From Pseudomonas sp. ML2-2023-3 (lineage in GTDB: Bacteria > Pseudomonadota > Gammaproteobacteria > Pseudomonadales > Pseudomonadaceae), in contig NZ_CP146343.1 in NCBI RefSeq assembly GCF_037055275.1, positions 72,001 through 136,000 of the forward strand: a DNA stretch of 64,000 nt. Reading direction: 5' to 3'. Each line of letters opens with the position of its first letter. Positions within the stretch are counted from its first letter, which is position 1. The notes below the pieces were generated by a model that was not told where the DNA came from, ran no database searches, and worked only from the letters and a program-made list of their open reading frames with translations. This document shows positions 19,601 through 54,608 of the stretch, piece after piece. The position numbers and the translations under genes are program-made.

Positions 19601-19830
19601 GGCTTAACTCCAAACACGTTAAGGGAGCTGCCACTTTTCGCTACTAAACAAATGGGTGGCAGCCGTGCACAGGTTAGTAGACCGGCGTGTTTGGGAACCG
19701 GCGTGCCCGAGGGCACCCTGCGCACGGCCACCATAAAACGCAGGCCGTAAAAAAGCGCCTCGAAAAGGTGGCGCCTTGCGCCAAACACTAAAGCCGGGCT
19801 ACTAAACCCGATCGCTGATTTTGCAGCGAT
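19601..19830 (-). promoter_or_regulatory. Structured 5' leader of the DUF6124 gene
   Basis: Read on the minus strand, this gene-free stretch contains several strong hairpins: GGCGC-AAG-GCGCC, GTGCCC-TC-GGGCAC and TTAAC...GTTAA next to the ribosome site. It also has two direct copies of TTTAGTAGC and an inverted TCTACTAA. The remaining gap, 19831-19950, shows no gene or clear motif. The leader may be a regulatory RNA structure; this is inference. Confidence 0.45.
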
Positions 19831-19950
19831 TGGCCGAGACTATTCCCCGAAATGGACAGGCGCAAGCGAGCGGAATCTTCTCGGATGTTTCACGAGAATG
19901 AAAGCGAAACGTCGTACGAAATGACTGATTTCCAAGGCCTGAACAACACG

Positions 19951-27631: not shown

Positions 27632-27696
27632 ACAGCCCCCAACCTGTGGGAGCAACTGTCATTGAGGATTTATTTTCAAATAATCCTTTCGGACAT

Positions 27697-27739
27697 GGCT
27701 TCGCCAGCGATACCGCGTAGCGGTATTACTGGCGAAGCC
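27697..27739. repeat. Near-perfect hairpin in the right end of the IS110 element
   Basis: Outer arms GGCTTCGCCAG / CTGGCGAAGCC and inner arms ATACCGC / GCGGTAT, separated by 2-base bulges, close a GTA loop. It lies 22 bases downstream of the transposase stop codon. It could end transposase transcription, protect the mRNA, or block reading into the element from cobK. Confidence 0.75.
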
Positions 27740-27760
27740 CTCGCTTCAGTAAAGTGCCCC

Positions 27761-28720
27761 TCATTTGTTATCAAAATGCGGGGCCTGAGATTTCTTCTCC
27801 CTCCAACCCGTGCCATCTCGCAGCATTGCGTTAAGACGAATCAATAGCTTGCGCATGCATGCCACAACAGCGACCTTCGCAAGCTTGCCTCGCGCTCGCA
27901 GAGCCTCATATTCGGCTTTGACTTGCGGATCGTGCTGGACCATTGACCAGGTCGACATATAGGTTGCGCCACGCACTGTATAGCGCCCGCCCTCGATTGA
28001 TCTGGGGCCGCTCTTCTTGCCACTATCGTTGTTGTAGGGCGCTAACCCTGCCAAAGCCGCAATCTTGCGTCCCGACACGGTTCCGAGCTCAGGAAGAAAT
28101 GCCAAGAGCGTTGCGCAGGTGATGGCTCCGATCCCTTTCACCGACCTCAGTCGTCTGGCTTTCTCCTGATCCAGCACGGTCGAGGCATCTTCAATCTCCT
28201 TACCCAATGACTTGATCTGGCCCTCCAGGTAAGCGATGTGATCGGTGTAAGTGGATATGGCTTTAGCGCATGTGGTTTGCTTCATCCGGCGCTTGTCGCT
28301 GTCCCGGCTCTTGACCAAGCTGCCTCGCAGCTTGAGCAATTCGCCCAGCTCATCCCGATCCTTATTCGGTTCAACATGCGGCAAGTCCTCGAAATCTCTC
28401 GCAAACTTCGCCAGCATCTGAGCATCGATCTTATCGGTTTTAGCTATCTTGCCCATAGCTCTCGCATAGTCGCGAGCGCGTTTGGGATTGACGCGAAAGA
28501 CATTCAAACCCTCCAACCGCAAGGCTCTGAGCAATGCCCTTTCATAGCCGCCGGTGGCTTCAAGCAAGATCCGCCCCACCTCAAGCTCGTTCAGGCATGT
28601 GATCAGCCGAGTGAAGCCCTCAAGGTCATTACTGACCTGAAACTGCGGGTAATTTGCAGGAAGAAACCCCACATCCACAGTCGCTTTCGAAACATCGAGA
28701 CCAACGTAGTAGGAAATCAT
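27761..28720 (-). CDS. IS110 family transposase (RNA-guided DEDD/serine recombinase)
   Basis: 319-residue recombinase. The N-terminal RuvC-like DEDD domain has D9 (YYVGLDVSK), E54 (ILLEATGGYE), and D96 and D99 (KTDKIDA). A coiled-coil region follows at about 120-190. The C-terminal Transposase_20 domain has a helix-hairpin-helix segment (RSVKGIGAITCATLLAFLPE) and the candidate nucleophile S233 in APYNNDSGKKSG. All catalytic positions appear intact, so the enzyme is probably functional. The ATG at 28718-28720 is preceded by AGAGGA; an in-frame TTG two codons upstream is too close to that site. The bridge-RNA-like region lies immediately upstream. Confidence 0.9.
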   Translation of the reverse strand: MISYYVGLDVSKATVDVGFLPANYPQFQVSNDLEGFTRLITCLNELEVGRILLEATGGYERALLRALRLEGLNVFRVNPKRARDYARAMGKIAKTDKIDAQMLAKFARDFEDLPHVEPNKDRDELGELLKLRGSLVKSRDSDKRRMKQTTCAKAISTYTDHIAYLEGQIKSLGKEIEDASTVLDQEKARRLRSVKGIGAITCATLLAFLPELGTVSGRKIAALAGLAPYNNDSGKKSGPRSIEGGRYTVRGATYMSTWSMVQHDPQVKAEYEALRARGKLAKVAVVACMRKLLIRLNAMLRDGTGWREKKSQAPHFDNK

Positions 28721-28744
28721 CGCCAAGTCCTCTTACACTCAAGA

Positions 28745-28901
28745 AGTGAGAGCACTCTGACCTATCCCTAGCTTGTGATTTCGAGTTTGCCGCTCATCCA
28801 ACTGTTCGGGCTTCTTGTCAGAGTGAGAGGTGGATGGCGACTTGGCTCCCACTCGTGCTTTAAGCACCGCTGGCTTTCAGTCTGCCATCCACTGCTCTCA
28901 C
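28745..28901 (-). ncRNA. Candidate IS110 bridge (seek) RNA
   Basis: Minus-strand non-coding left end of the element, with two stem-loops. Loop 1 is closed by GTGGATGGC (28884-28892) and GCCATCCAC (28830-28838), extended by GTGAGAG/CTCTCAC. It contains AAGCCAGC (28869-28876), equal to the left target, and GTGGGAGC (28845-28852), complementary to the right target. Loop 2 is closed by CACTCTGAC (28817-28825) and GTCAGAGTG (28753-28761). It contains ACAGTTG (28799-28805), equal to the element's right end, and CACAAGC (28771-28777), complementary to its left end. The order of guides agrees with the published IS621 bridge RNA design. RNA ends are approximate. Confidence 0.8.
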
Positions 28902-28932
28902 CCTTCTGAGTTTAAGATACCTTGAAGACACA

Positions 28933-29012
28933 AGCTGGCTTGCCTGCGATGCAAACGACGCGGTCTGCTTGGTAAAACCAGCAGATGCCATCGCGAGCAA
29001 GCCCGCTCCCAC
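28933..29012. repeat. REPIN, family B, split by the IS110 element
   Basis: The right part of an inverted REP pair ends with CGCGAGCAAGCCCGCTCCCA at about 28991-29010. The first 11 bases of the other arm (CCTGTGGGAGC) are at 27643-27653 on the far side of the element. Together they form a normal family-B REPIN like those at 44441 and 54505. Confidence 0.85.
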
Positions 29013-51559: not shown

Positions 51560-53260
51560 ATGAAAATATCCCGTCAGGCCTACGCCGACATGTTCGGCCC
51601 CACCGTAGGTGACAAGGTTCGTTTGGCCGATACCGAGCTGTGGGTCGAGGTCGAGCAGGACTTCACCACCTACGGAGAAGAAGTGAAGTTTGGCGGCGGC
51701 AAAGTGATTCGCGACGGTATGGGCCAAAGCCAGTTGCTCGCCAGCGAGGTGGTCGACACCCTGATCACCAACGCACTGATCATCGATCACTGGGGCATCG
51801 TCAAGGCCGATGTGGGCCTCAAGAACGGTCGCATCCACGCCATCGGCAAAGCCGGCAACCCGGATATCCAGCCCAATGTGACCATTGCCATCGGCGCCAG
51901 CACCGAAGTGATCGCGGGCGAAGGCATGATCCTCACCGCAGGCGGTATCGACACCCATATCCACTTCATCTGCCCGCAGCAGATCGAAGAAGCGCTCAAC
52001 AGCGGCGTCACCACCATGATCGGCGGCGGCACCGGCCCGGCCACCGGCACCAATGCCACCACCTGCACCCCAGGCCCCTGGCATATGGCGCGCATGCTCC
52101 AGGCCGCCGATTCGTTCCCGATGAACATGGGCTTTACCGGCAAGGGCAACGCCAGCCTGCCGCAACCGCTGATCGAACAGGTCGAGGCCGGGGCCATCGG
52201 CCTCAAGCTGCACGAAGACTGGGGCACCACCCCCGCGTCCATCGACAACTGCCTGAATGTCGCCGACCTGTATGACGTGCAAGTGGCGATTCACAGCGAC
52301 ACCCTGAACGAGTCGGGCTTTGTCGAAACCACCCTCGCCGCCTTCAAGGGCCGCACCATCCACACCTATCACACCGAAGGGGCCGGTGGAGGCCATGCGC
52401 CGGACATCATCAAGGCCTGCGGCCTGGTCAATGTGCTGCCCAGCTCCACCAACCCGACCCGGCCTTTTACCCGCAACACCATCGACGAACACCTCGACAT
52501 GTTGATGGTGTGCCATCACCTCGACCCGAGCATCGCCGAGGACGTGGCCTTCGCCGAAAGCCGTATCCGCCGTGAAACCATTGCCGCCGAAGACATCCTC
52601 CATGACCTGGGCGCGTTCTCGATGATCAGCTCCGACAGCCAGGCCATGGGCCGGGTGGGCGAAGTGATCACCCGCACCTGGCAGACCGCCGACAAAATGA
52701 AGAAGCAGCGCGGCCCATTGCCCGAAGATGCCGTGGGCAACGATAACTTCCGCGCCAAACGCTACATCGCCAAGTACACCATCAACCCGGCCATCACCCA
52801 CGGCGTGAGCCATGAAGTGGGGTCGATCGAGGTGGGCAAGTGGGCCGATCTGGTGCTGTGGCGCCCGGCGTTTTTTGGGGTCAAGCCCACGCTGATCCTC
52901 AAGGGTGGCGCCATTGCCGCAAGCCTGATGGGTGATCCCAACGCCTCCATCCCCACCCCGCAACCCGTGCATTACCGCCCGATGTTCGCCAGCTACGGTG
53001 GCTCGCGCCATGCCACCTGCCTGACCTTTATCAGCCAGGCCGCTTTCGACGCAGGCGTACCCGCAGCGCTGGGTTTGCAAAAGCAAATCGCGGTGGTCAA
53101 GGGCTGCCGTGATGTGCAAAAAACCGACCTGATTCACAACGGTTATTTGCCCAGGATCGAAGTCGACCCCCAGACCTATCAGGTCAAGGCCGACGGTGTG
53201 TTGCTGTGGTGTGAACCGGCTGATGTGTTGCCGATGGCACAGCGCTACTTTCTGTTCTGA
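51560..53260 (+). CDS. ureC: Urease subunit alpha
   Basis: Catalytic subunit of nickel urease, 566 residues (normal length). Active-site residues are all visible: metal-binding His in [14 protein letters not shown], the carbamylated Lys in [11 protein letters not shown], His in [14 protein letters not shown] and in [12 protein letters not shown], the flap His in [14 protein letters not shown], and the metal-binding Asp in [22 protein letters not shown] precedes the ATG at 51560; an in-frame frame extension to 51470 runs through the REPIN and is rejected. Confidence 0.97.
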
Positions 53261-54504: not shown

Positions 54505-54590
54505 TGTGGGAGCGGGCTTGCTCGCGATGGCATCACCGCGATGTGCCGTCAGACCGCGTCGTCTGCATCGCAGGCAAGCCAGCGCCCACA
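54505..54590. repeat. REPIN, family B, between the kinase gene and cbpM
   Basis: TGTGGGAGCGGGCTTGCTCG pairs with a diverged right arm GCAGGCAAGCCAGCGCCCAC in the gap between two convergent genes; the inner GACCGCGTCG spacer resembles the one at the split REPIN. Confidence 0.85.
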
Positions 54591-54608
54591 AAGCCTGTGG
54601 GCATGCTT

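Follow-up and report, generated by a model that had tools for sequence, protein, structure and literature searches.

The window, a stretch of 64,000 nucleotides of Pseudomonas DNA, contains an insertion sequence that lies on the minus strand and splits a REP doublet (Table 1). The junctions of the element read CATCGCAGGCAAGCCAG-CT on the left and CT-CCCACAG on the right, and the non-coding left end, upstream of the transposase gene, spans approximately 212-213 nt versus approximately 110 nt at the right end. The transposase matches the NCBIfam entry 'IS110 family RNA-guided transposase' with 208 bits (cutoff 140) and contains both IS110 Pfam domains. Among solved recombinase structures, it matches those of IS621 (8wt6, E 2.8e-27) and ISCro4 (E 3.2e-26). 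Residues D9, E54, D96, D99 and S233 align with the catalytic DEDD and serine of IS621, which have been described as D11, E60, D102, D105 and S241 (PMC11208158), and all five are invariant in an alignment of 14 sequences. Judged by its sequence, the element belongs to the IS110 group, of the bridge RNA (IS621) type. Membership of the IS1111 group, in which the RNA lies downstream of the transposase gene and the subterminal inverted repeats measure 11-13 bp, was considered and rejected, as the long end lies upstream and only a short GACA/TGTC repeat at the joined ends is visible by eye.

Table 1. Positions of the element, its flanks and the parts of its predicted bridge RNA in the window. Junctions and cores are marked with a hyphen.
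Feature	Position	Strand	Basis or remark
Whole IS110 element, 1282 bp including a single CT core copy	27651..28932	-	Junctions common to six genomic copies with differing outer flanks
Left core copy	28934-28933	-	
Right core copy	27652-27651	-	
Transposase/recombinase gene, 319 aa	27764..28720	-	DEDD_Tnp_IS110 and Transposase_20; sole gene of the element
Left flank, REP doublet (REPIN) split by the insertion, GTGGGAGC through TCGCAGGCAAGCCAG-CT	28933..29012	-	Left core copy included
Right flank CTCCCACAGG, remaining part of the split REP	27643..27652	-	Right core copy included
Right non-coding end, ~110 nt	27651..27760	-	Long hairpin 27696-27739; ends with GACAGTTG
Predicted bridge RNA: outer stem (28901-28894/28753-28746), target loop, donor loop	28745..28901	-	Fold, covariation, matches of model R1
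Target-binding loop on covarying stem	28830..28893	-	In relatives, both partners vary in 12 of 14 pairs
Left target guide AAGCCAGC	28869..28876 (read 28876-28869)	-	
Right target guide GTGGGAG(C)	28846..28852	-	C at 28845 pairs with position 7 G
Donor-binding loop on covarying stem	28755..28823	-	In relatives, both partners vary in 5 of 6 outer pairs
Left donor guide ACAGTTG	28799..28805	-	Equals the element's right end; ACAGTT invariant in relatives
Right donor guide CACAAG(C)	28772..28777, C at 28771	-	ACAAGC invariant in relatives
Putative donor-loop handshake guide CU	28770..28771	-	C (28771) complementary to target G7, U (28770) to target A6

Two other RNA matches were recorded elsewhere in the window. 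At 19652-19843 (minus strand), Rfam matches to C4 antisense RNA, its a1/b1 targets and isrK adjoin one another, an arrangement that suggests a prophage or satellite immunity region. At 51707-51992 (minus strand), there is a match of 116 bits to Rfam 5_ureB_sRNA, the family of a Helicobacter ureB antisense RNA; this match may simply reflect a urease gene.

Fold and guides of the predicted bridge RNA

The left end (28727-28932) folds into two stem-loops with a free energy of -78.7 kcal/mol (z = -4.7), and none of 200 shuffled sequences was equally stable. This two-loop fold had been proposed in the earlier note from reading the letters, together with four guides, and on re-reading the coordinates all four lie where it placed them within 28745-28901. 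The target loop comes first and the donor loop second, with the 5' side of each loop complementary to the bottom strand and the 3' side to the top strand. Read against the junctions, the guides of loop 1 match both sides of the target and those of loop 2 match both ends of the element. The likeness to IS621 suggested previously (left guide 5', right guide 3', target loop before donor loop) agrees with the loop order and guide placement described for the IS621 bridge RNA (PMC11208160, PMC11208158). In its own genome, model R1 gives six strong matches, one per copy of the element, along with six weak antisense matches over the same six copies; as every R1 match falls in these copies, a bridge RNA without a transposase was not found in this genome.

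Relatives at E 1e-60 or better are present in 18 of 298 genomes of the genus, the own genome included. The nearest among the best 80 loci from a scan of named genomes is that of P. bharatica CSV86 (78% identity; guides and target unchanged); within those 80, ends were read for L098-L124. From 29 distinct left ends, 27 were aligned, leaving out the own copies L002 and L003. Earlier exclusions comprised L029 (left end missed by the pattern), L033 and L118 (broken gene start) and L119-L124 (distant), while L016, L034 and L045 were excluded as repeats of the own copies. RNAalifold predicts 40 pairs for the 27 left ends, 21 of them with compensatory changes. In the 39-pair structure that includes the outer stem, 96.1% of cells are paired (88.5% in shuffles), 19 of the 39 pairs are changed on both sides (9.1 in shuffles) and the covariation score reaches 0.289 (0.138 in shuffles), values reached in 0/500 shuffles each; the best of the slid controls pairs 46.7%. 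The number of further pair types was not above that of shuffles (344 of 500). The outer stem, at only 89.4% pairing, has no pair with changes on both sides, and so the covariation supports the stems of both loops rather than the outer stem.

The guides also change with their targets. Among rows with a left flank of 9 bases or more, the left guide matches its target at a mean of 5.97 of 8 positions compared with 4.75 after permutation (0/20000 permutations, uncorrected for relatedness; 19 distinct combinations), with a one-base shift allowed for observed and permuted sets alike. These left-guide matches are imperfect, ranging from 4.5 to 8 of 8: guides of the L021 and L022 types close with A or G in place of the expected core C, and in L027/L040, where the guide GCCCG lies opposite the target GCCCC, one further base is missed. 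For the right guide, 27 of 28 distinct combinations are exact across 7 nt; they fall into the three guide/target types GTGGGAG/CTCCCAC (18), GTAGGAG/CTCCTAC (8) and TTAGGAAG/CTTCCTA (1), the single miss being the own copy L006. Four changes of right-guide type fall on the transposase tree, two of them separating sister rows (L024/L025 and L026/L115); the run on independent pairs had the same trait entered twice, and hence shows the existence of these four changes only. A GTGGGAG stretch that recalls part of the target loop is also found in the right non-coding ends of L021, L022, L027, L028, L030 and L031.

Site choice in the host genome

The genome carries six copies of the element that are 99-100% identical, and all of them break a REP doublet at one point, after AAGCCAG, with differing outer flanks. 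The left junction reads CATCGCAGGCAAGCCAG-CT in all six, and the right junction CT-CCCACAG in five and CT-CCCATCA in L006, where the right half CTCCCAT has one mismatch to the guide. The five other copies sit at sites that match the target guides, one of them with this single right-half mismatch, as the earlier note would have them. Copy L002 (C1:4734016-4735297) is one base shorter, with a change of the transposase frame near the C terminus.

Unbroken AAGCCNGCTCCCAC occurs 410 times in the genome, 398 times as AAGCCC and twice as AAGCCAG, so that there are 398 empty sites of the form AAGCCCGCTCCCAC versus two of the form AAGCCAGCTCCCAC. One base thus separates the common host REP from the guide, and this REP holds none of the six copies. 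With an exact CTCCCAC right half, five of seven A-type sites are occupied versus 0/408 sites with a different base at that position (Fisher 2e-10), and the value becomes 4e-12 once the sixth copy, with its CTCCCAT right half, is added; as the site pattern ended in CTCCCAC, empty AAGCCAG sites followed by CTCCCAT were counted only among the 20 sites with TCGCAGGCAAGCCAG, where there are none. Those 20 places comprise the six occupied sites, two empty sites with a perfect CTCCCAC and twelve empty sites whose right half differs or whose core is broken (CGCCCAC, TCCCCAC, CTCCCGC, CTCCTAC, TTCCCAC twice, CTCTCAC, GCTCCCAC, CTTCCAC, CTCACCA and CTCCTGC twice). A right half beginning CTCCCA follows TCGCAGGCAAGCCAG in 6/6 occupied and 2/14 empty cases (p 7e-4), and the two perfectly matching sites remain empty. 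One empty REP doublet of the target class, with the right half CGCCCAC and a broken CT core, lies in the window itself at 54568-54595 (plus strand). In a search for an orthologous empty site, the neighbouring gene was matched in 36 of 57 genomes (nearest 81%), and the REP doublet was kept in none of the six intergenic stretches inspected.

The fold, the guides, the site choice, the co-variation and the CT core together form the sequence basis for reading this element as an insertion sequence of the IS110 group whose own bridge RNA guides it into one class of Pseudomonas REP doublets, an interpretation to which we give a probability of roughly 0.94. It is improbable that the left end is instead mainly a regulatory 5' leader, acted on by an antisense RNA and masking the transposase ribosome site through its fold, with the protein alone recognising the REP palindrome. 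Such a leader is described for ISPpu9, an IS110 element in REPs, where a 244-nt 5' leader with a fold likely to cover the ribosome site is accompanied by the antisense RNA Asr9 (PMC8450116), and the minimum-energy fold of the present element likewise pairs the 5' part of the leader with the region of AAGAGG ahead of the start codon. However, recognition by the protein alone does not predict that the letters of the RNA change along with the target, nor that a REP present in 398 copies and different at a single guide base would hold none of the six copies. The leader could have a regulatory role in addition to that of bridge RNA.

It is hardly credible that chance alone put the matching guide words into a structured, GC-rich leader: although single words of 6-7 nt occur in 2-11% of shuffles, AAGCCAG, GTGGGAG, ACAGTTG and ACAAGC occur all together in 0/20000 dinucleotide shuffles of the left end (3.3e-6 as the product of the single-word frequencies in such shuffles), and the matches recur with altered letters in relatives. 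An equally negligible chance attaches to the idea that TCGCAGGCAAGCCAG, identical over 17 bases to the left of all six copies, is part of the element and the target match an artefact of its boundary, given that TCGCAGGCAAGCCAG without the element is found at 14 places in the same genome (two of which continue CTCCCAC), marking the shared left flank as host DNA outside the element, and that in relatives the left flank differs between copies of one element (such as L026/L039 and L105/L106).

Core, possible junction promoter and putative handshake

Either GC or CT, within a shared GCT, had been predicted as the core. For L019, L027/L040, L028 and L031, CC closes the left flank ahead of TTGTG and the right end reads GTTG-CT, which leaves CT as the only letters that both junctions share. 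Since these relatives without a G before CT share CT alone, the prediction holds for CT and fails for GC. Read from these sequences, the core is CT, the G of GCT is position 7 and the C pairing with that G is a handshake base outside the core.

Joining the two ends gives the predicted circle junction ACAGTTGCTTGTG, in which, by letters and spacing only, the TTG of the right end falls at a -35-like place and the TA...T of the left end at a -10-like place. The TA...T is found in 27/27 left ends, and the spacer between TTGCTT and TA...T measures 17 nt, or 16 in L026 and L115. As a circle-junction promoter has been published for IS621 (PMC11208160), a promoter re-formed at the joined ends is by analogy the likely source of the bridge RNA.

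In IS621, each right guide is followed by two bases that pair with the other DNA once strands have been exchanged, and covariation of this handshake has been published for position 7 (PMC11208158). In the present element, the C and U that follow the right donor guide are complementary to G7 and A6 of the target, a point absent from the earlier note. While the IS621 test pair is tC7 and dT7 (PMC11208158), target and donor here share G at position 7, and a handshake base at this position therefore cannot discriminate between them. A survey of 116 loci yielded 75 with readable ends, 51 of them (25 distinct) in the subfamily of elements with a TTGTGTC left end and 24 (23 distinct) in distant IS110 elements. 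In the subfamily, position 6 is paired in 25/25 distinct rows (36/20000 permutations, again uncorrected for relatedness), with A-U in the lineage of the window, T-A in L113 and C-G in the remaining 23. The RNA base for position 7 is C throughout, so that this position, paired in 22/25, gives no signal. In the distant elements, position 7 is paired in 21/23 (0/20000) and position 6 in 5/23 (7189/20000). The position-6 signal rests on two deviating lineages, and L113 is ambiguous, since target and donor share TG there and its A is equally explained by the donor. Every further element that was read carries C in the target at position 6, with G as the RNA base, adding no new state.

As target and donor mostly share the G at position 7, the discriminating handshake may have moved to position 6 in this REP-targeting subfamily, and the guides may evolve in parallel with each host's class of REP, so that host REP families and IS110 guides would co-diversify; we regard this combined proposal as tentative and somewhat doubtful. 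The handshake at position 6, as read from the sequences, is put forward as a mildly new lead rather than a result.

Proposed mechanism, distribution and known systems

Transcription, circle formation, cutting and strand exchange are reconstructed by analogy with IS621. The recombinase would excise the element as a circle, the joined ends would bring the -35-like TTG upstream of the -10-like TA...T, and the RNA would be made from the circle. Loop 1 would then pair with both strands of the REP (AAGCCAG-CT-CCCAC) and loop 2 with both strands of the joined ends (ACAGTTG-CT-TGTG), upon which a recombinase tetramer would cut after the CT core. The CU after the right donor guide could pair with G7 and A6 of the target, aiding strand exchange.

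Scans with model R1 of 149, 369 and 398 genomes gave matches in 13, 2 and 39 genomes respectively, the own genome included. Among 25 loci from the 149-genome scan (L208-L232), a transposase neighbour was matched in 17, weakly so in L214 (E 4e-7); seven of the other eight are cut by the contig end, and L219 is a remnant. L214 (~1470-1655) and L219 (~1470-1680) are bridge-RNA-like and have no intact adjoining transposase, and the left guide GCGCG of L214 matches its flank GCGCG. A tandem pair in G265 (L247) was set aside, as it contains N and is probably an assembly fault. All relatives found among 1136 plasmid records have less than 60% identity, and a scan of viral contigs gave two distant loci. 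The class-wide protein search matched 8 of 369 genomes, the own genome included, and the donor-loop pattern was not found in the seven non-own loci.

Bridge RNAs were published in 2024 (PMC11208160, PMC11208158), as was the related seekRNA (PMC11187229), and the present element, which is IS621- and ISPpu10-like, is a further example of a mechanism published earlier for its family. It resembles IS621 of E. coli in its recombinase family, aligned catalytic residues, bridge RNA in a long left end, order of loops and guides, CT core and REP target as these are described (PMC11208160, PMC11208158), but the protein similarity is distant (99 bits over the whole chain) and the REP is a different one. 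ISPpu9 and ISPpu10 of P. putida KT2440 were reported in 2006 as IS110 elements, with 7/7 copies of each lying at a common point in REPs (PMC1525189), and ISPpu10 is among six elements with a bridge RNA drawn in PMC11208160. Published descriptions provide the likeness to both; the repeat left by ISPpu9 is AG, or CT when read on the opposite strand, and a point of difference is the additional downstream RNA, Ssr9, of 5 of its 7 copies (PMC8450116). The nearest counterpart among the 80 loci is the element of Pseudomonas bharatica CSV86 (L098), which has the same target guides, the same handshake CU and the target AAGCCAG-CTCCCACAG, but occurs in another species with a transposase that is 78% identical (one copy examined). 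ISPa11 and the IS1111 group share an RNA-guided DEDD recombinase and a REP target, but are described with the RNA downstream of the transposase gene, long subterminal inverted repeats and guides in reverse order (PMC11187229). A text search for literature joining the terms 'bridge RNA' and 'REPIN' found none.

The authors of the ISPpu9 study suggest that the ssr9 segment between the A and B boxes may move alone (PMC8450116). If so, this segment would be a mini-element with RNA only, and a candidate for a non-autonomous bridge-RNA element. In the genome studied here, one guide base separates a handful of used sites from approximately 400 near-identical unused ones, which makes it an unusually legible natural test of RNA-guided insertion. 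The subfamily offers natural variants of the target guides and of the second handshake base, useful for the choice of compact recombinases and for working out pairing rules.
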